A DNA stretch of 64,000 nt from a virus. Every line of letters begins with the position of its first letter. Position 1 is the stretch's first letter. Of this stretch, positions 1 to 8,732 are shown piece by piece. Position numbers and translations under genes: made by a program. The stretch lies in IMG/VR virus record IMGVR_UViG_3300013136_000003, positions 1-64,000 of that record. One strand, written 5' to 3'. The notes below the pieces were generated by a model. That model saw nothing but the letters and a program-made list of their open reading frames with translations, ran no database searches and had not been told where the DNA came from.

Positions 1-600
1 CAAGCGGGTCTTCAGGTTCTTCAGGTTCATCTGGAACAAGCGGGTCTTCAGGTTCTTCAGGTTCATCTGGAACAAGCGGGTCTTCAGGTTCATCTGGTAA
101 ATCTGGTTCTTCAGGTTCATCTGGAACAAGCGGGTCTTCAGGTTCTTCAGGTTCATCTGGTAAATCTGGTTCCTCAGGTTCATCTGGAACAAGCGGGTCT
201 TCAGGTTCATCAGGTTCATCTGGTAAATCTGGTTCCTCAGGTTCATCTGGAACAAGCGGGTCTTCAGGTAGTTCAGGATCATCAGGCAAATCAGGGTCCA
301 GCGGATCTTCCGGCACTTCTGGAAGCTCAGGTTCATCCGGTTCGTCAGGAAAAGCTGGTAGCTCTGGATCTTCCGGCACTTCTGGAAGCTCAGGTTCATC
401 CGGTTCGTCAGGAAAAGCTGGTAGCTCTGGATCTTCTGGCACTAGCGGTTCATCAGGTTCATCCGGTACTTCCGGTTCCAGCGGCTCAAGCGGTACTTCT
501 GGATCATCTGGCTCGTCTGGTTCGTCAGGCAAAGCTGGTAGCTCAGGATCTTCTGGTACTAGTGGCGCAGCGGGCTCAAGCGGTTCATCCGGTACGTCAG
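1..600. repeat. Tandem collagen-coding repeats
   Basis: Degenerate 9-base units of the type GGTTCATCT/GGAACAAGC are arranged in longer near-identical blocks of roughly 60 bases. Between about 300 and 600 the blocks change to a second variant with GGATCTTCCGGCACT, repeated almost exactly at about 300-360 and 360-430. The array should be prone to recombination and copy-number change, altering shaft length. Confidence 0.85.
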
Positions 601-1229
601 GAACCGACGGAAATGCAAATTTCACTACTGATACTGACCTTTATTACGACACTGCGACTGACACAATATACACTCCGAACCTTACGTTAACAAGCACCAG
701 TTTCTCTGCAACGAGCCTTCCTTCCGGCGGAACGTCAAACGAAGTTCTGGTCAAAGAATCTGACGGTACTATAAAAACAAAAACCGGAGCAGCAGGTTCC
801 TCAGGTTCCTCAGGAACGTCAGGTTCGTCTGGAACTTCTGGAGCAGCAGGATCTTCGGGCTCATCGGGTACATCAGGAACTTCTGGTGCAGATGGGGCAA
901 GCGGCGGACCAGTAGAAAGAACCTTTACTTGGGCTATAGTTAACCCAGCTGTTGCCACTGTGTTAGGACCAAGGCTCAACGGTAAATTCACTCCAACAAG
1001 GTGCGATACTTTCGTAGGTTCAAATACAAGTGTATCATTCAAGGTTCTGTACGGAACTGCACCAGGGTCATTCACAAACACGTCAGTCCAACCTACTACC
1101 GCTACCACTTCTGCTGGTACAGGTACCGTTAATGCAGTCGATATAGCTGCTGGCAACTGGTTGGTCGTTGAAATAACCGCTACGTCCGGAACTGCTGGAC
1201 AGCTTGTGGTAACCCTAGCCGGAACCTAA
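1..1229 (+). CDS. Collagen-like Ser/Thr-rich tail fibre, 3' part of the gene
   Basis: The frame (codons from base 3) is open at the window edge, so the start lies upstream. About 200 codons are Gly-X-Y triplets, chiefly GSS, GTS and GKS. A non-repeat insert follows (starting GTDGNANF), then a second collagen-like block and a C-terminal domain of about 110 residues from GGPVERTFTW to the stop, probably beta-rich. Phage fibres use such collagen-like stretches as trimeric shafts, so a tail fibre or adhesin is the likely role. Ser and Thr fill nearly all X and Y positions, giving a dense array of possible O-glycosylation sites; a TibC-like glycosyltransferase gene follows 0.9 kb downstream. The fibre role is inferred; the repeat is seen directly. 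Confidence 0.8.
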   Translation, partial: SGSSGSSGSSGTSGSSGSSGSSGTSGSSGSSGKSGSSGSSGTSGSSGSSGSSGKSGSSGSSGTSGSSGSSGSSGKSGSSGSSGTSGSSGSSGSSGKSGSSGSSGTSGSSGSSGSSGKAGSSGSSGTSGSSGSSGSSGKAGSSGSSGTSGSSGSSGTSGSSGSSGTSGSSGSSGSSGKAGSSGSSGTSGAAGSSGSSGTSGTDGNANFTTDTDLYYDTATDTIYTPNLTLTSTSFSATSLPSGGTSNEVLVKESDGTIKTKTGAAGSSGSSGTSGSSGTSGAAGSSGSSGTSGTSGADGASGGPVERTFTWAIVNPAVATVLGPRLNGKFTPTRCDTFVGSNTSVSFKVLYGTAPGSFTNTSVQPTTATTSAGTGTVNAVDIAAGNWLVVEITATSGTAGQLVVTLAGT

Positions 1230-1243
1230 AAATACGAAAATCG

Positions 1244-1978
1244 ATGGGAGCATTCGAAGGAACTCTAAAAACCCCAGGAACATCACAATACACCTTACCA
1301 TTTGGCTGCGTGCTTAAAGCTGTGCGTTGCTGGGCAGCTGGAGGTCGTGGAGCTGACATAACCTACCCTACCGGAACAAGAGGCGGAGGTGGAGGAGGTG
1401 GCGCTTACGCTGAACCCAACAGTTTAACTACGTATGACAATAAAATGTGGAACGCTAGGTTAACTGTCATAGTTGGAGCAGGAGGAAGCGACTTAGCTGT
1501 TAACGGCGGAGATTCGCTAGTAACTTTGGAATTAGCAGAAGACGGAGGATTTGGTACTCCCATAACGTTAGCTAGAGCTCAGGGAGGAAGAGGTGTTGCC
1601 AATAACTCAGCAACAGGTGGAGCTGGCGGAACCGTTACTACTGGCACTGGGTACACTGGAGGTAACGGTGCTAGCACTATTTCTACTTACGGTGGTGGTG
1701 GTGGCGGTGGAGCTGGCAGTATTGCAAACGGAGGAAATGCTTCTGCTAGAACAGGAGGAACTGCTGGAGCTGGAAGCGGCGGCCGTGGAGGTTACGGTAG
1801 CAACGTTTCTGGAGTTGCTGGTACAGCTGGAACAGCGTTTGGAGGCGGAGGCGGAGGAGGTTACCGTACAACGACAGGAAGTGTTTCAGGCGGAAACGGA
1901 ACAAACGGAGGCGTAACCATTTCCATTCAATGGCCGGACAACCTTGTCATGCACGTCATCAAGGACGAGGGAGTATAA
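1244..1978 (+). CDS. Glycine-rich tail-tip or adhesin-like protein
   Basis: A 244-residue protein with many glycine runs (GGGGGGG, GGAGG, GGGGGGY) between residues about 40 and 225, flanked by a short N-terminal domain and a C-terminal segment starting SIQWPDN. Glycine-rich proteins of this kind form polyglycine II bundles in distal fibre adhesins such as gp38 of T-even phages, and similar proteins accompany fibre genes in many phages. The gene follows the collagen-like fibre by 14 bases and ends before the glycosyltransferase, fitting a receptor-binding tip or fibre accessory protein. No sequence-specific adhesin motif is recognisable. Confidence 0.7.
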   Translation: MGAFEGTLKTPGTSQYTLPFGCVLKAVRCWAAGGRGADITYPTGTRGGGGGGGAYAEPNSLTTYDNKMWNARLTVIVGAGGSDLAVNGGDSLVTLELAEDGGFGTPITLARAQGGRGVANNSATGGAGGTVTTGTGYTGGNGASTISTYGGGGGGGAGSIANGGNASARTGGTAGAGSGGRGGYGSNVSGVAGTAGTAFGGGGGGGYRTTTGSVSGGNGTNGGVTISIQWPDNLVMHVIKDEGV

Positions 1979-2062
1979 ATCGGAAAAGAAAAATGATAGA
2001 AAATTAGGCGATGATAAAATCGATCCAATTTCTAACAAAACTCAGGTCAACATTTACAGTAT

Positions 2063-2081
2063 AAAAGGCAAAAGGCCTTTT
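2063..2081 (+). terminator. Weak hairpin before the glycosyltransferase
   Basis: AAAAGGC and GCCTTTT form a 7-bp stem around AAAAG, but only four T residues end the stem and the next start codon is 6 bases away. It may be a weak terminator or a translational hairpin. Confidence 0.35.
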
Positions 2082-2087
2082 CACTAA

Positions 2088-4433
2088 ATGTTCGATTACA
2101 AAGTAAGAGTAGCTACGTCCCTCGTAGGAACTACCGGTTACAATAATCACGCGCAATCTTTTTTCAGATCACTTTCAAAGTTCGTCCCGTTAGAGATACG
2201 CAACTTCACGATAGGCAGTTCGTGGAACGGGTATTCTGACGAACCTCACAACGGCGAACCGTACATGGACGATCAGATGAAGACTCTTCTGACCGAACAG
2301 ACTCTCTGGAACGATAAAAAGATGCTGGTTGATTACCCGATCTACACCAAGTACCCAAATCCAGGAAAGCCAGTCATCAACATCGTTCTTAACGAGACCA
2401 ACCATCATTACTTTTACCGCGATTACTTCGGTTACAACATAGCTTACAACGTTTGGGAATCAACTCTTCAACCGGATAATTTCTTTAAGAGATTGTTGGA
2501 ATTCGACGAAATGTGGGTTCCGTCAAAGTGGCAGAAAGAGTGCACAGTTAAACAAGGTTACCCAGAAGACAAGATATTCGTTATTCCTGAAGGGGTTGAT
2601 GTCGCTACCTTTTTTCCTGAAAAAGTCTATCACGGTCTAACAGCAAACCCAAAACGGTTCACGTTTGGAATTTTCGGTAGGTGGGATTACCGAAAATCGA
2701 CGAAGGAGATGATAGAAACCTTCCTAAAAACGTTCGATAAGAACGAGCCGGTCGACCTTATCGTGTCCATAGACAATCCTTTTTCTTCAGACGGAATGAC
2801 TTCAACCGAAGAAAGATTGACTAAGTACGGGCTTCTTGATAGTCGGATAAAGATCTTGCACTTTCCTTCTAGGGAAGATTACGTTCGACTGATGAAATCG
2901 GTCAACGTTTTTCTGTCGTGTTCTCGGTCAGAAGGTTGGAACCTTCCTCTCATAGAAGCGATGTCCTGCGGAACTCCGGCTATCTACTCAAACTGTTGCG
3001 CTCAGCTAGAATTTGCGGAAGGTAGAGGTTTACCTGTCGAAGTATTAGGAGAAAAACCCTCCAGAGAAAGCAGTTACAATCACTTTAACGAGACAGTCGG
3101 CAATTACTACGAGCCAGATTTTGATGATCTCGGAAAGGTCATGTGCGATGCATACGAGAATTACGAGTCTCACAAGAACCGAGCGATCGAAGAATCGAAA
3201 GAAATTCACCAACTCTTTAATTGGACAAAGGTTGCTAGGTTAGCCGCAGAACACTTAGAGAGCAGGAAAGAACACATAGAACAGGTTCTAAAGACCGAGA
3301 AGAATTTTCTCAAGATCAACTACCACTTCGTTGAAGGAGCAAACGTTGACATAGTTGGCGGCGAACCCAGCGAGTACTTAGTGGAGTTCACTGATCAGAA
3401 AACTGGAAACGTTCTCCACAAAGCTACGATAAACAATAACATGTGGACCAAGGCCTACCGACAGTATTTCGTCGATTGGCACGTAAAGATAACTGACACG
3501 AAAACTCAGGACGTTTTGTTAGACAGGTCAATCGACTTGGAAGGAAAGCGAGTTTACGTTGCTATCGAATCTGCTTCTCTCGGAGATACCTTGGCTTGGT
3601 TTCCGCCGGTAGAAGAATTTCGAAAGAAACACAAGTGCGAGATGCTGTGCTCGACTCATCACAACGAGTGGTTCGTAAAAAATTACCCGGAAATAAAGTT
3701 CATCACACCAGGAACAGCTGTTAACGATTTGCACGCGATGTACAAGATCGGTTGGTTCTACAAGGAAAATACTGAGACTAAACAAACCGTCATAAACTTG
3801 GACATGAACCCAAGCGATCCAAAACCTCAGCCTATGCAAAAAGCAGCTTTCGACATACTTGGATTACCTTACAAGGAAACTTTACCCATCTTAACTCTTC
3901 CAAAAAATGTCAAAAAGAAAAAGAAGATCGCGATAGCTTTGCATGCAACGTGTCAATCAAAGTACTGGAATAAAGCAAACGGTTGGCAGACTGTCGTAGA
4001 TTGGTGCAGAAAGAATGGGTACGATGTAGTTCTCCTGTCGAAGGAAGAGGATGGGTACATGGGAAACTCTCACCCAACCGGAATTAGACAGCTACCAGCT
4101 GGGCCCATAGAAAAAGTCATCAAGGAACTGATGGAAGCAAAAGCTTTCGTTGGAATAGGAAGCGGGTTGAGTTGGCTTTCTTGGGCAGTTGGAACTCCCA
4201 CCGTAATCGTGTCAGGTTTTTCTTATCCGTACACCGAAACTACTTTGAACACGTTTAGAGTTTTTACGCCTGAAGGAAAGTGTTCAGGCTGCTTTAATCG
4301 ACACCGGTTATCGCCAGATGATTGGTACTGGTGCCCGGAGCACAAAGCAACTGAGAGACAGTTCGAATGCACAAGATCTATAACGCCGGAAATGGTCATT
4401 GAAGAATTGAAGAAAGCTCTGAAGATCGTATAG
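2088..4433 (+). CDS. Two-domain glycosyltransferase: GT4-type plus TibC-like heptosyltransferase
   Basis: The 781-residue protein joins two transferases. Residues about 1-400 look like GT4: VIPEGVD, FGIFGRWDYRKS, and the sugar-nucleotide loop SRSEGWNLPLIEAMSCGTPA. Residues about 480-781 resemble autotransporter heptosyltransferases of the TibC/Aah group, with IGSGLSWLSWAVGTP, SGFSYPYTE and four cysteines (about 732, 735, 749, 761) in the CSGC...WYWCPEH...FECT pattern that binds iron in TibC. TibC enzymes O-glycosylate serines of repetitive surface adhesins. The gene lies directly behind a Ser/Thr-rich collagen-like fibre, so fibre glycosylation is the leading inference. An alternative is modification of host surface glycans. 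Confidence 0.85.
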   Translation: MFDYKVRVATSLVGTTGYNNHAQSFFRSLSKFVPLEIRNFTIGSSWNGYSDEPHNGEPYMDDQMKTLLTEQTLWNDKKMLVDYPIYTKYPNPGKPVINIVLNETNHHYFYRDYFGYNIAYNVWESTLQPDNFFKRLLEFDEMWVPSKWQKECTVKQGYPEDKIFVIPEGVDVATFFPEKVYHGLTANPKRFTFGIFGRWDYRKSTKEMIETFLKTFDKNEPVDLIVSIDNPFSSDGMTSTEERLTKYGLLDSRIKILHFPSREDYVRLMKSVNVFLSCSRSEGWNLPLIEAMSCGTPAIYSNCCAQLEFAEGRGLPVEVLGEKPSRESSYNHFNETVGNYYEPDFDDLGKVMCDAYENYESHKNRAIEESKEIHQLFNWTKVARLAAEHLESRKEHIEQVLKTEKNFLKINYHFVEGANVDIVGGEPSEYLVEFTDQKTGNVLHKATINNNMWTKAYRQYFVDWHVKITDTKTQDVLLDRSIDLEGKRVYVAIESASLGDTLAWFPPVEEFRKKHKCEMLCSTHHNEWFVKNYPEIKFITPGTAVNDLHAMYKIGWFYKENTETKQTVINLDMNPSDPKPQPMQKAAFDILGLPYKETLPILTLPKNVKKKKKIAIALHATCQSKYWNKANGWQTVVDWCRKNGYDVVLLSKEEDGYMGNSHPTGIRQLPAGPIEKVIKELMEAKAFVGIGSGLSWLSWAVGTPTVIVSGFSYPYTETTLNTFRVFTPEGKCSGCFNRHRLSPDDWYWCPEHKATERQFECTRSITPEMVIEELKKALKIV

Positions 4434-4443
4434 ATAATTCAGT

Positions 4444-5058
4444 ATGATACTCAATGCTAGACAAAACGGTTTTCTCGTAAATCTCCCACAGGATTTTTTC
4501 AACAAGGAGATAGATCAGAAGTACGAAAAGTACTACAAAAACCTACTGGTTCCGTACAGATCTCTGTCTGACTTCATGGCATCCACCATACAGACGATAG
4601 ACATTCCTGGGTTCAACAGCACCTTACCGTTTCAGATGGAAACGTTAGGAAAGAAAAGAGAAGCTCAGAGCGCAGTTCCGATCGCTGAGCAGTTCAACCG
4701 CGACATAAAGATCTCGTTCAAGCTAACTGACGGTTGGCTTAGTTACTGGATATTTTTGGACAACATGCTGAACTACTTGGATTTTTCCAACATTGCTGAA
4801 AGTAACACTCAAAATTCGTTAGGCCGAGCATTTTCAGCGCAACCTGTTCCAAATGCTAACCACCCATTCTTTCACCCAATTAGGCTGACCATACTGAACA
4901 ACGAAGGTTATGCTTTAGTGTCAATTGTTTTCAACCGACCGATGATCACCGGTCTCACGAACTTTCAGCTATCTTACGCTTCGGTAAAGAGCGAGTTCAA
5001 AACTTTCACAGTTACGTTTAGGTATTACAACTTCGATCTCGAACCGGAATTCGATTAA
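4444..5058 (+). CDS. Tail tube protein-like (T4 gp19 type)
   Basis: A 204-residue protein with the order expected of myovirus tail tubes: an N-terminal extension, an IDIPGF motif, KISFKLTDGWLSYW, IRLTILNNEG with a following IVFNRP strand, and a C-terminal FKTFTVTFRYYNF strand typical of tube and tube-initiator folds. It would polymerise inside the contractile sheath. It sits 10 bases after the glycosyltransferase and converges on the gp15-like gene with a 4-base overlap. A tube-initiator (gp54-like) protein is the main alternative. Confidence 0.6.
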   Translation: MILNARQNGFLVNLPQDFFNKEIDQKYEKYYKNLLVPYRSLSDFMASTIQTIDIPGFNSTLPFQMETLGKKREAQSAVPIAEQFNRDIKISFKLTDGWLSYWIFLDNMLNYLDFSNIAESNTQNSLGRAFSAQPVPNANHPFFHPIRLTILNNEGYALVSIVFNRPMITGLTNFQLSYASVKSEFKTFTVTFRYYNFDLEPEFD

Positions 5059-5819
5059 GATTCAGGTTGAGTAGGCAGATCGTTCTGATCTATCCAAGTG
5101 TTGTCCATCAAGTTTTCGTCCTGATCTAGAAACCTGAGGTTAATTCTTTCCCTGGTGTTGGAACTTCTTCTCTTAGACGAGGATTCGAAGCTCGGGAAGT
5201 ACGTTTCAACTTCCACCGACGTAGTCATGTGCAACTTATTGTTGTCTGCATACGTGAAGGAGTACTTCTTATCGATCTTTTCATTCTCCGAAAAATGAAA
5301 CTGCGCTGGAATTCTTATGCCTTTGTACCTGAAATAAACTACTCGGTTAGAATAAGTTAGATCTAGAATAGTTTCAGCTATCTTGAACGCTTGGTTTATG
5401 CTGGCAGTTATCACTTTTATGTCAAACGTGACGGTCATCGGCAAGGAATAGAGCTGAGCTGAGTACCCGGTTAGAATATTTTCTCCATTACTGTTCTTTT
5501 CGGTCTCTGTGTATTGCCCACGAATAAACCGGTTAGTGATGTCTCCGCTTTTTATCTGAAATGTGTTTAACGTGACTATCCCTCTCGGGATCATGTCATA
5601 CGTTCCTTCCGATACCGGAATTCGGCAGTTGTCAGGTAAGCCGATGTAGAAATCCTTTAGAAAGCCTTCGTCCGTTCCGTAATTGTACATAAAAGGAACT
5701 GTGTACGTTTCATCAGCGTCGTTTCTGGAGACGGTTATGGTCATAACGCTGTTGAGAAGGTCTAGCAAAGAAATCGTTAGGTTTCGAAGAAAGATGTTAT
5801 CTGTGTTCAGTGTCTTCAT
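5055..5819 (-). CDS. Tail terminator / sheath stabiliser, T4 gp15-like
   Basis: A 254-residue protein with the layout of T4 gp15, which caps the tail tube and sheath for joining to the neck: an N-terminal helix (FLRNLTISLLDLLNSV), the TITVSRND..YTVPFMY segment matching gp15 'IQIKRQ..IRVPITY', a conserved IPRGIVTLNTFQI strand, and YSLPMTVTFDIKVITASINQAFKIAETIL matching the gp15 'MIYELSIFTR...QIVEQIL' region. A C-terminal acidic tail follows. Its late-type box lies only 4 bases before the ATG, so the mRNA may be nearly leaderless or a more distal start may be used. Family assignment is by eye. Confidence 0.7.
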   Translation of the reverse strand: MKTLNTDNIFLRNLTISLLDLLNSVMTITVSRNDADETYTVPFMYNYGTDEGFLKDFYIGLPDNCRIPVSEGTYDMIPRGIVTLNTFQIKSGDITNRFIRGQYTETEKNSNGENILTGYSAQLYSLPMTVTFDIKVITASINQAFKIAETILDLTYSNRVVYFRYKGIRIPAQFHFSENEKIDKKYSFTYADNNKLHMTTSVEVETYFPSFESSSKRRSSNTRERINLRFLDQDENLMDNTWIDQNDLPTQPES

Positions 5820-5823
5820 ACCT

Positions 5824-5831
5824 TTATTTAT
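5824..5831 (-). promoter_or_regulatory. Late-type promoter box ATAAATAA
   Basis: ATAAATAA on the minus strand, 4 bases before the gp15-like start codon. It matches the T4 late box TATAAATA in 7 of 8 positions when aligned by one base. Confidence 0.5.
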
Positions 5832-6444
5832 TCATAGTGCGCCCAGTTATCCAACCGTCAGGGATAGTTGAATTTGCAGCTAATTTTTTATTAGCCTGGC
5901 CGTTTGTTATCCACTTTGTGCCGAACTGAGAATTTTCAGAACCGAATCCCTTTCCTTTACGAGAATCGCTCATCTTCTTCTTTGTTTCTTCTCGGTGCTT
6001 TCGACCTATCCAATTTAATGAATGCCATTTACCTGAAGCTAACATTTTTCGGTTGGTTTCTTTCATTTTTTCGCTAGCCTTCCTTGATTTCTCAGGATTA
6101 GTAGTTCGACCGCCAGCCGACGAACACTTGAGCTGATGTTCTTTAGAACAAAATCCGCCTTCTCCTCCTAATTGCAAATTCATGCACCTTGGATCCAGTA
6201 AAACTGTTTCATTTATCAATTCGCGTTCTCTATTTCTTAGTTCTTCGCGAGTTTCGAAAAACTCTAACACTTCCTTTGTGTGATTTTGTTTTCCGTGCTT
6301 TTTAATAGAGTATCGAATGCGCTTGCCGCTTCCAAAATATCCATCTTCCATATTATCGGTTGCGTGCATCCCAATATAGTAACGGCCAGTTACATTGCAG
6401 GAGATTGTATAAATGTAATGGAATTTGTGTTCTCTTCTAGGCAT
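5824..6444 (-). CDS. GIY-YIG homing endonuclease (Seg-like) with NUMOD3 repeats
   Basis: A 206-residue protein beginning with a GIY-YIG domain (HYIYTISCNVTGRYYIGMHA) and continuing through ELRNRERELI to a basic region with NUMOD3-like DNA-binding repeats (GRKHREETKKKMS, SRKGKGFGSEN). Seg-type enzymes are free-standing mobile genes that cut related genomes and spread by repair. It is wedged between the gp15-like gene and the tmRNA. Its codon use is more AT-rich than its neighbours, a sign of separate origin. It has its own late-type box, as T4 homing endonucleases do. Confidence 0.85.
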   Translation of the reverse strand: MPRREHKFHYIYTISCNVTGRYYIGMHATDNMEDGYFGSGKRIRYSIKKHGKQNHTKEVLEFFETREELRNRERELINETVLLDPRCMNLQLGGEGGFCSKEHQLKCSSAGGRTTNPEKSRKASEKMKETNRKMLASGKWHSLNWIGRKHREETKKKMSDSRKGKGFGSENSQFGTKWITNGQANKKLAANSTIPDGWITGRTMNK

Positions 6445-6467
6445 AAAAAAGTACCTCAGTTTTAGAG

Positions 6468-6475
6468 TTATTTAT
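6468..6475 (-). promoter_or_regulatory. Late-type promoter box for the homing endonuclease
   Basis: ATAAATAA (context AGATAAATAAC) on the minus strand, 23 bases before the endonuclease ATG and just downstream of the tmRNA 3' end. Confidence 0.5.
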
Positions 6476-6504
6476 CTATCACTGAGGTACAATTTGTGCC
6501 GGGG

Positions 6505-6948
6505 TGGAGGTGGTGGGATTCGAACCCGCGTCCGCCAAATAATGCGAGAAGCTCTCATTCACATGCTTAGTTCATTTTTCTAAACGAACAAAATTTGTGT
6601 CTTTCTTTTTTGGACTGACTTAAGACTCAGTCAGCGAACCTACCGCTAGAGACGATCTCAATGGGTATTGGATTTCTCCTCAAGGTTCCTCGCGGTTTCG
6701 TGAGCGGTACTACGAACCTTTTTTCCCGCATGCGCACATTTGGTCGTATGGAATTGGGCAAGTGCGGCCCAATGATTAAGCAACCAGTGCTAGGTCCTCA
6801 ACCTGCTCAGCAACGCCGATTGTCTCGTCATTGATGAGGCTCCAGATAGAAGTGTTGCCACTTACCGTTTGATACGAGTTAACGAGTTAGGATCTTCCTC
6901 GGCATGCAAGCTTAACCCATGTATTCACGTCAATAGCCTGTCACCCCC
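6505..6948 (-). ncRNA. ssrA: Transfer-messenger RNA (tmRNA)
   Basis: On the minus strand the 5' end GGGGGTGA pairs with 3' CACCTCC to give a 7-bp acceptor stem containing the G3-U70 wobble used by alanyl-tRNA synthetase. The 3' part has GGGTTCGAATCCC (T arm); the 5' part has the tmRNA-like GACAGGCTATTGACGTG. The tag frame begins after GGTAAGT at GGC (6859) and ends TAA (6778-6776): 27 codons, starting GNTSIW and ending EDLALVA. CCA is not encoded (ACCC follows the stem), so 3' maturation would be needed. tmRNA with SmpB rescues stalled ribosomes and tags their products for proteolysis. It is one-piece, not permuted. Confidence 0.92.
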
Positions 6949-6959
6949 ATGAGTTAGTT

Positions 6960-6985
6960 TATTATTGTACTAACGTTATCTATAA
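6960..6985 (-). promoter_or_regulatory. Candidate promoter of the tmRNA
   Basis: The minus strand reads GTTAGTACAATAATAAA just upstream of the mature 5' end. The GTTAGTAnnATA shape recurs before the DNA ligase gene and, in looser form, before other genes. The gap of about 14 bases from TACAATA to the mature 5' end suggests that a leader is trimmed. Confidence 0.4.
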
Positions 6986-7017
6986 AAGGTCCACGTGTGA
7001 GCCTCGTTAACTCACGG

Positions 7018-7025
7018 ATAAATAA
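7018..7025 (+). promoter_or_regulatory. Late-type promoter box ATAAATAA
   Basis: GGATAAATAAAG, 21 bases before the ATG of the baseplate wedge gene; no other gene start is near. Confidence 0.6.
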
Positions 7026-7046
7026 AGAAAAAGAAGTACCTCATAG

Positions 7047-8732
7047 ATGGCCACGATTACAAGTCAAAATACCTCTCTACGGCTTTTTACCAGCTTAAAG
7101 ATCAGGATCTCTGACATACTCGGAGAAACGATAACCTACTTGCAGGAAACATTTAAGCAGAGTAGAGCCATTTTTACGGCAGCTTCTCCGTTCGGCCAGC
7201 TCCTGATAGTTTTTGAAAACTTGAGCCAGCTGATATTCTACTACATTGAGGATTCCATCACCGAACTAAACATCTACGAAGCGTCCCGGCCATCATCGAT
7301 ATACAGTTTAGCCTCGTTAGCGGGCCACAATCCTAGTCGAGCAATCGGAGCAACCGCGCAAGTTAGGTTACTGAGAAAACCGGGAATAATTCCAACGTCA
7401 AACAAAGCGATACTTAACAATCTCTTTAGGCTGACTTGCTCGAACAATGGGTTGACTTACGTGATGGAACTTCCGCAGGACGAAGTTCGTTTGAACTTAA
7501 CCGGCGCAGAAACAATGGCAGTTTTCAGCTTACGGCAAGGTCAGATCGAGAGTCAGACCGTTACAGCAAAAGGAAAACCGCTAGACAGTTTCAGCATAGG
7601 TTACCCTAACAACTATTACATCGATCAGTTCATGGTAAACGTTTACGTTAACGGAGAGCAGTGGACCAAGTACGATTCTCTTCTCGATATACCAAGGAAC
7701 GCTAAGGGCTTTTTCACAAAGACTGGCATAACTAATGGACTCGACATTTACTTCGGAAACGGTTCTTTCGGAAAGATTCCGGACGTTGGTAGCGAGATCG
7801 TTGTCGAGTACTTAGTTTCAGAAGGATCCAACGGAAACATAAGAGTCGACGATGCTCGGCAGGTTCAGTTTACTTTCTCAGAAAACGCTTTTTCTCCGAT
7901 AGGAGAGGAACTCAACCTTAACGAGTACTTTGACATTGCTACAATAAGCCCACCGAGCTTCGGAGTTGACCCAGAAGACATCGAACTCACCAGGTTGATA
8001 GCTCCTAAACAATCGAAAAATTTTGCGCTGGTGAATCCAGACAATTACGAGGTCCTGCTTCACAAGATGCAGATGTTTTCGACGGTTAGAGTATTTCTAA
8101 ACGAAGCGAATCCTCGAATGATAAACCTGTTTCTCATACCTGACGTAACTCAACTGTTCAAAACCAGCGCAGATTACTTCAAGTTAGGTTTGGACAGGTT
8201 CATCCTGACTCCTTTTCAGAAAAACGAACTAGTAAAGTACATAGAGAAGTCCGGAACCAAGTTGGTGTCTACCGACATTGCCCTTCTCGACCCAATTCTA
8301 ACAAAATACGTTCTGAACATCAGCGTCATTGGTTTCGACGATGTTGAGAATGACGTGATAAAGACCGACATAACGGACGCGATAGGAAATTACTTCATAA
8401 AACTATCCCGAAACGATAGGGTGCCTAAAAGCGACCTAATCACCGTGGTAGAATCAGTTAATGGCGTTGACTCAGTAAGCATTTCCATCGTGTCAGAACT
8501 AAACGAATTAGCGTTCATTTCCGACCCTAACCGTGATCCTTCCAGCTTGGTAGGACTCGACGAGTTCAACGACATAGTCATGAAGATCGACGAGTTCCCA
8601 GTCATAAGAGGTGGGTGGATCGATAGGTATGGAAACAATTACGCTGAGGGGATTTCTGACACTGCTTTGGGTGCTGTGAACATTGAGATAAAAGCTCAAA
8701 AAGCTACTCGCAAAAAATTGACTCTACTATGA
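7047..8732 (+). CDS. Baseplate wedge protein, T4 gp6-like
   Basis: A 561-residue protein (T4 gp6 is about 660). The N-terminal part reads PFGQLLIVFENLSQLIFYYIEDSITELNI in two helices, followed by SRPSSIYSLASLAGHNPSRAIGA, the signature that starts the gp6 / gpJ wedge fold. The body is beta-rich, and the C-terminal part (about 400-520) has the VVESVNGVDSVSISI motif of baseplate J-like proteins. gp6 forms the inner iris of the baseplate around the hub. It is the first gene of a tight plus-strand run (gp6-like, unknown, small and large terminase) with 1-4 base overlaps. Confidence 0.8.
   Translation: MATITSQNTSLRLFTSLKIRISDILGETITYLQETFKQSRAIFTAASPFGQLLIVFENLSQLIFYYIEDSITELNIYEASRPSSIYSLASLAGHNPSRAIGATAQVRLLRKPGIIPTSNKAILNNLFRLTCSNNGLTYVMELPQDEVRLNLTGAETMAVFSLRQGQIESQTVTAKGKPLDSFSIGYPNNYYIDQFMVNVYVNGEQWTKYDSLLDIPRNAKGFFTKTGITNGLDIYFGNGSFGKIPDVGSEIVVEYLVSEGSNGNIRVDDARQVQFTFSENAFSPIGEELNLNEYFDIATISPPSFGVDPEDIELTRLIAPKQSKNFALVNPDNYEVLLHKMQMFSTVRVFLNEANPRMINLFLIPDVTQLFKTSADYFKLGLDRFILTPFQKNELVKYIEKSGTKLVSTDIALLDPILTKYVLNISVIGFDDVENDVIKTDITDAIGNYFIKLSRNDRVPKSDLITVVESVNGVDSVSISIVSELNELAFISDPNRDPSSLVGLDEFNDIVMKIDEFPVIRGGWIDRYGNNYAEGISDTALGAVNIEIKAQKATRKKLTLL

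Follow-up and report, generated by a model that had tools for sequence, protein, structure and literature searches.

Does a Phage Equip Its Own Tail Fibre with Sugars?

The window analysed here, bases 1–64,000 of an 87,381-bp virus record, opens with a gene for a collagen-like tail fibre that is almost exclusively Gly, Ser, and Thr in its main repeat, followed by a gene for a glycosyltransferase related to TibC. The locus raises the question of whether the phage glycosylates its own fibre and, if so, on which residues and with which sugars.

Terminase sequences place the phage remotely from its closest named counterparts (about 28–35% identity to Tenacibaculum PTm1/PTm5, Sphingomonas phage PAU, and Prevotella Lak). 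Since terminase relatives with about 69–74% identity reach 250–271 kb, the record probably represents only part of a jumbo myovirus genome. A circular record was considered and rejected, the window's opening bases being absent from the opposite end of the record. Phage-like MAG contigs with close TibC enzymes (L445, L455, and L456) were binned in two of three cases with Flavobacteriales or Winogradskyella; taken together, the terminase matches and this binning suggest a host among the Bacteroidota. Elsewhere in the window, long ORFs are scarce between 54001 and 64000, where G+C rises from about 0.43 to 0.48–0.54, and an ORF within the tail module (5824–6444, minus strand) has a GIY-YIG-like start when inspected by eye, with a similar ORF in a related locus (L347:5481–6188).

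A Proline-Free Ser/Thr Collagen in a Tail Fibre

The fibre gene (3..1229, plus strand, frame +3) lacks its N-terminal part because the window begins at base 1 of the record, so that the 5′ end of the frame is cut by the contig start. The remaining C-terminal part matches the Pfam Collagen family (PF01391, 7.6e-37), and its top PHROGs are tail fibre families, which places the Gly-X-Y repeat in a tail-fibre context. The main block (6..617, plus strand) comprises 68 proline-free triplets with Ser, Thr, or Lys in position X (46, 13, and 7 triplets, respectively) and Ser in position Y of 62/68, bearing out the original prediction that both positions are almost all Ser or Thr. A second Ser/Thr block, of 14 Gly-X-Y triplets, follows at 786..911 (plus strand). 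The window thus holds 68 + 14 = 82 triplets rather than the roughly 200 first proposed, a figure that was probably a residue count, the first block being 199 residues long. Copies of the 63-bp repeat differ from one another chiefly in the third base of codons, with 69 synonymous codon differences against 16 non-synonymous ones, and therefore the protein repeat, not just the DNA, is maintained. Across phage Ser/Thr tracts, Ser occupies 75–92% of Y positions and Pro accounts for at most 0.3%; one such fibre, from a terminase relative, ends in a Peptidase_S74 domain. A tblastn search with a synthetic G-S/T-S peptide gave no match, an outcome that its low-complexity filter would lead one to expect.

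The opposite end of the record carries a second Ser/Thr collagen fibre (L083:9199–11472; record 85099–87372), which stops 9 bases short of that end and has a collagen match of 4.2e-32, FNIP/leucine-rich-like repeats at the C terminus, and a start at TTG or later. Another protein in the same record (L082:10616–11314) carries TTTTTT-rich, mucin-like linkers and is another possible O-glycosylation acceptor.

A TibC-Type Enzyme Fused to a GT4 Domain

The enzyme gene (2088..4433, plus strand; 781 aa) begins 859 bp downstream of the fibre stop codon, in agreement with the predicted spacing of 0.9 kb. One small gene intervenes (1244..1978, plus strand), encoding a glycine-rich domain protein that resembles tail-fibre-assembly proteins (Gly_rich_2, PF21722, 2.9e-9; phrog_863, 1.2e-8). 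The N-terminal half of the enzyme (residues 1–402; 2088..3293, plus strand) qualifies as a GT4 domain by its match to PF00534 over residues 187–309 (2.4e-11; 43.9 bits versus a cut-off of 26.4) and an E-x7-E motif (E282-x7-E290), and it also matches phrog_2170 over residues 79–392. The C-terminal TibC/BAHT domain (residues 403–776; 3294..4415, plus strand) matches TIGR04414, the Aah/TibC O-heptosyltransferase family, at 1.6e-79 (267.6 bits versus a curated cut-off of 200), so that both halves of the proposed fusion stand over cut-off. PF01075 matches as well (2e-8), reflecting a GT9/heptosyltransferase fold.

Structural comparison led to the same assignment. TibC is the best solved structure for the C-terminal half both by sequence (4RAP, 9.5e-54) and by fold; in a Foldseek search with an AlphaFold2 model of the enzyme, built as a monomer only and not as the dodecamer ring of the TibC/Aah family (mean pLDDT 80, pTM 0.53), TibC was the top match (4RAP, E 4.5e-33, TMt 0.83), followed by GT4 enzymes. 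By alignment, D500 (3585..3587, plus strand) corresponds to the TibC catalytic base D110, and the four cysteines singled out in the original prediction, C732, C735, C749, and C761 (4281..4370, plus strand), match the four iron-binding residues in the TibC iron finger. No autotransporter match was found among the window proteins scanned, and the neighbours of the enzyme are the Ser/Thr collagen fibre and phage structural genes. The partner not being an autotransporter, the protein is described here as a TibC-type enzyme rather than as an autotransporter heptosyltransferase.

TibC-Type Enzymes Co-occur with Ser/Thr Collagens

The association between enzyme and collagen was assessed in three ways. 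For the first comparison, contigs were picked by DNA pattern, blind to the enzyme, yielding 50 with Ser/Thr collagen and 40 with Gly-Pro collagen. With the caveat that p-values are too small because rows are interrelated in all three tests, TibC over cut-off was present in 20/50 Ser/Thr contigs versus 0/40 Gly-Pro contigs (Fisher p = 1e-6) and in 16/28 versus 0/9 among records of at least 60 kb (p = 0.005), and the median distance from TibC to the tract was 11.9 kb compared to 30 kb under random placement (p = 0.002). Many of the 30/50 Ser/Thr records without a TibC match are fragments. PF00534 was not enriched in the TibC-negative Ser/Thr set (7/30 versus 8/40), and the link is therefore to TibC, not to glycosyltransferases generally.

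In the second comparison, TibC loci were picked by protein, and phage loci of at least 10 kb were de-duplicated. A Ser/Thr tract was found in 27/33 TibC phage loci versus 1/52 Gly-Pro loci; at least one locus counted as negative (L070) contains an interrupted Ser/Thr repeat overlooked by the tract rule, and a few TibC loci are without a tract (for example, L005/L006 and L454). The third comparison, among terminase relatives, found TibC in 28/33 and the Ser/Thr pattern absent from 5/5 negatives, a weak test because truncation of a contig would remove both neighbours together. Three relatives (L347, L353, and L411) share the arrangement of genes surrounding the enzyme. Across phages, then, TibC is paired with Ser/Thr collagen strongly and specifically, as the co-occurrence check of the original prediction called for.

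One Branch of the Enzyme Tree Tracks the Collagen

The strongest evidence for the pairing comes from a tree of 97 enzymes (a quick tree with a few long branches, supported by SH-aLRT in place of bootstrap). A branch with an SH-aLRT of 100 parts 39 bacterial enzymes from 58 phage and bacterial enzymes. Ser/Thr collagen lies nearby in 0/24 testable members of the former group versus 44/50 testable members of the latter, and AIDA repeats were found in 5/6 large neighbours scanned in the Ser/Thr-negative group. Bacteria on the Ser/Thr side include Methylobacter, Methylomicrobium, Methylococcaceae, Polaromonas, and other proteobacterial MAGs. Many of their enzymes adjoin a small Ser/Thr collagen 17–1130 bp away, several of which appear by eye to carry a signal or lipoprotein sequence; the surroundings of the Methylobacter locus resemble housekeeping genes, likewise by eye.

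The window enzyme has the same residues as TibC at the catalytic D110 and at T226, K230, and W305, which together with R286 are sugar-binding positions, in addition to the four iron-binding cysteines, and the equivalents of D110, K230, W305, and the cysteines are invariant in 97/97 rows of the tree. Two positions differ: TibC Arg-286, which contacts the donor adenine, is replaced by V677, and the stereoselectivity residue Pro-300 by G691 (TibC roles from PMC4358343). At the Arg-286 position, Arg is found in 38/39 enzymes on the Ser/Thr-negative side, and the residue is variable on the Ser/Thr side. Because the adenine contact is Val here and variable across the clade, the phage branch may draw on ADP-heptose or on another nucleotide sugar as donor, and the sugar transferred may not be heptose.

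Architectures in the family range from standalone TibC and GT4–TibC to larger proteins with methyltransferase, GT25, FkbM, or PIG-L domains (Pfam). Some phages carry a split HldE-like pair, a nucleotidyltransferase of about 130 aa and a kinase of about 245 aa, with a small cupin in some loci. The enzyme gene is followed in L003, L009, and L006 by a nucleotidyltransferase (rfaE_dom_II-like) and a short kinase (rfaE_dom_I-like), with the cupin standing between enzyme and pair in L003; in L071, the kinase is present and no nucleotidyltransferase was seen beside it; and in one relative (G095), the pair occupies another genome site (L438). The pair suggests heptose as the sugar, a suggestion and no stronger because both genes score under the equivalog cut-offs. 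As a general marker, HldE-like genes were rejected: they occur in 8/38 TibC-positive versus 2/36 TibC-negative records, unconvincing by itself and with all matches under the equivalog cut-off. GmhA was found in 1/38 TibC-positive records.

We lean towards the view that a separate TibC branch, found in large phages as well as in unrelated bacteria, is dedicated to proline-free Ser/Thr collagens. Its phage members would have grown into assembly lines through fusion to deacetylase, methyltransferase, GT4, and GT25 domains, sometimes with an HldE-like donor-making pair alongside, and their donor would perhaps no longer be ADP-heptose.

A Cultured Phage Carries the Pair

A TibC domain was detected at E 1e-5 in 4/50,697 phage records, one of them from a cultured phage, Microcystis phage Mel-JY01 (PP395634.1; L525). 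Its Ser/Thr collagen frame spans 2–3049 (1016 aa, 199 triplets), of which only the last part is annotated; an antisense frame (739–2298) is annotated in place of most of the real collagen gene. Its GT4–TibC protein (4750–8430, 1226 aa) is annotated as an FkbM methyltransferase, and a Pfam scan at 0.001 found GT4 and TibC/GT9 domains and no FkbM domain. Since a cultured phage has the pair, fibre glycosylation is directly testable. Ser/Thr collagen genes are prone to long antisense open frames (VPEVPxVPELP...), and the one at 2–625 on the minus strand of the window is the same mis-annotation trap as in Mel-JY01.

A Model for Fibre Glycosylation and Its Alternatives

The preferred model is glycosylation of the tail fibre by the phage itself, with TibC adding the first sugar to repeat serines and GT4 the second, and we regard this as probable. 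The TibC domain would act in the host cytoplasm, before chain trimerisation, attaching the initial sugar to serines in the proline-free Gly-[Ser/Thr]-Ser repeats, most likely on the near-invariant Ser in position Y; this choice of acceptor follows from tract composition, Y being mostly Ser, and from the report that TibC modifies Ser, not Thr (PMC4358343). The fused GT4 domain would then attach a second sugar, extending the glycan. The product would be a glycan-covered collagen-type rod, in which the sugars could stabilise and hydrate the proline-free repeat. The central proposal of the original prediction, that the phage sugars its own fibre, is thus supported by TibC as the best C-terminal structure and by the co-occurrence with Ser/Thr-rich collagen; what we infer is the acceptor role of the collagen, the sequence in which the two domains act, and the stabilisation by sugars. 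Against the model weigh the Val in place of the adenine-contacting Arg, the 30/50 Ser/Thr records without a TibC match (many of them fragments), the few TibC loci lacking a tract, and the β-solenoid nature of the classical TibC acceptor. Roles of the glycans in shielding, receptor tuning, or variation with repeat number are speculation.

Alternatively, the target could be the host surface, with the enzyme modifying LPS core or O-chain to prevent superinfection, for instance; its closeness to the fibre would then reflect a shared host-recognition region. The GT9/heptosyltransferase fold (PF01075, 2e-8) would fit such a role, as would pelagimyophages, in which glycosyltransferases of the tail-fibre region and rfaE have been so interpreted (PMC7029224). 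The domain is nevertheless of the TibC type, a protein O-heptosyltransferase family, complete with iron finger; ordinary GT4 genes are unlinked to Ser/Thr collagen; and the same clade is paired with Ser/Thr collagen in bacteria, in Methylobacter beside housekeeping genes, all of which makes host-surface modification unlikely.

The pairing itself could also mislead. Another virion protein might be the acceptor, such as the glycine-rich protein (1244–1978) whose gene sits between fibre and enzyme, with the collagen as a bystander; we consider this quite improbable, given that Ser/Thr collagen is the sole shared neighbour among those inspected in several bacterial loci and that a non-exhaustive look revealed no shared alternative partner. 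Co-occurrence could be a by-product of lineage if large aquatic T4-like phages hold both genes for unrelated reasons. The records are related and fragmentary, and the five TibC-negative terminase relatives also lack Ser/Thr tracts, a pattern that shared truncation could explain; yet the pairing recurs in unrelated bacterial chromosomes, tracks one branch of the enzyme tree, and persists in records of at least 60 kb (16/28 versus 0/9), so that this is the least probable of the readings. Glycosylation of the phage's own fibre remains the preferred interpretation.

Relation to Known Systems and Implications

The classical TibC acceptor is a β-solenoid, not a collagen, and the collagen-like repeats of BclA use Pro and Thr. 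The window enzyme resembles TibC and Aah (BAHT; PMC4358343) in family membership by curated cut-off, in fold, in the catalytic Asp, Lys, and Trp, and in the four-Cys iron finger; it differs in its GT4 fusion, in its partner, a collagen-like fibre rather than an AIDA-type adhesin, and in the replacement of the adenine-contacting Arg by Val. The collagen-like repeat of Bacillus BclA has been reported to be glycosylated (PMC8968730), by different enzymes and on a repeat unlike the proline-free one of the window phage with Ser in position Y; by analogy, glycosylation could make up for the absent proline. In mycobacteriophages, sugars on virion proteins have been tied to glycosyltransferases that the phages themselves encode (Freeman 2023, cited in PMC11256854); the targets there are capsid proteins and the enzymes, as far as this analysis found, are not TibC-type. 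Pelagimyophages similarly carry glycosyltransferases beside tail fibres and rfaE-like genes (PMC7029224), and the TibC-bearing phages suggest a reading other than LPS modification. Searches of a literature collection with few subscription journals turned up no report of TibC-type enzymes at work in phages, and earlier work may exist.

On the genomic evidence, a TibC-type enzyme paired with Ser/Thr collagen looks like a widespread candidate mechanism for the glycosylation of such fibres, and the pair might become a tool for producing glycosylated collagen. If the model is correct, sugar coats on phage tail fibres would have a genetic explanation, with the probable acceptor residue named, and a family known for glycosylating adhesins would gain a new class of substrate. 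The model would also offer a reason why very long proline-free collagen repeats could work, and the fibre glycans would influence receptor binding, stability, and recognition of the phage.
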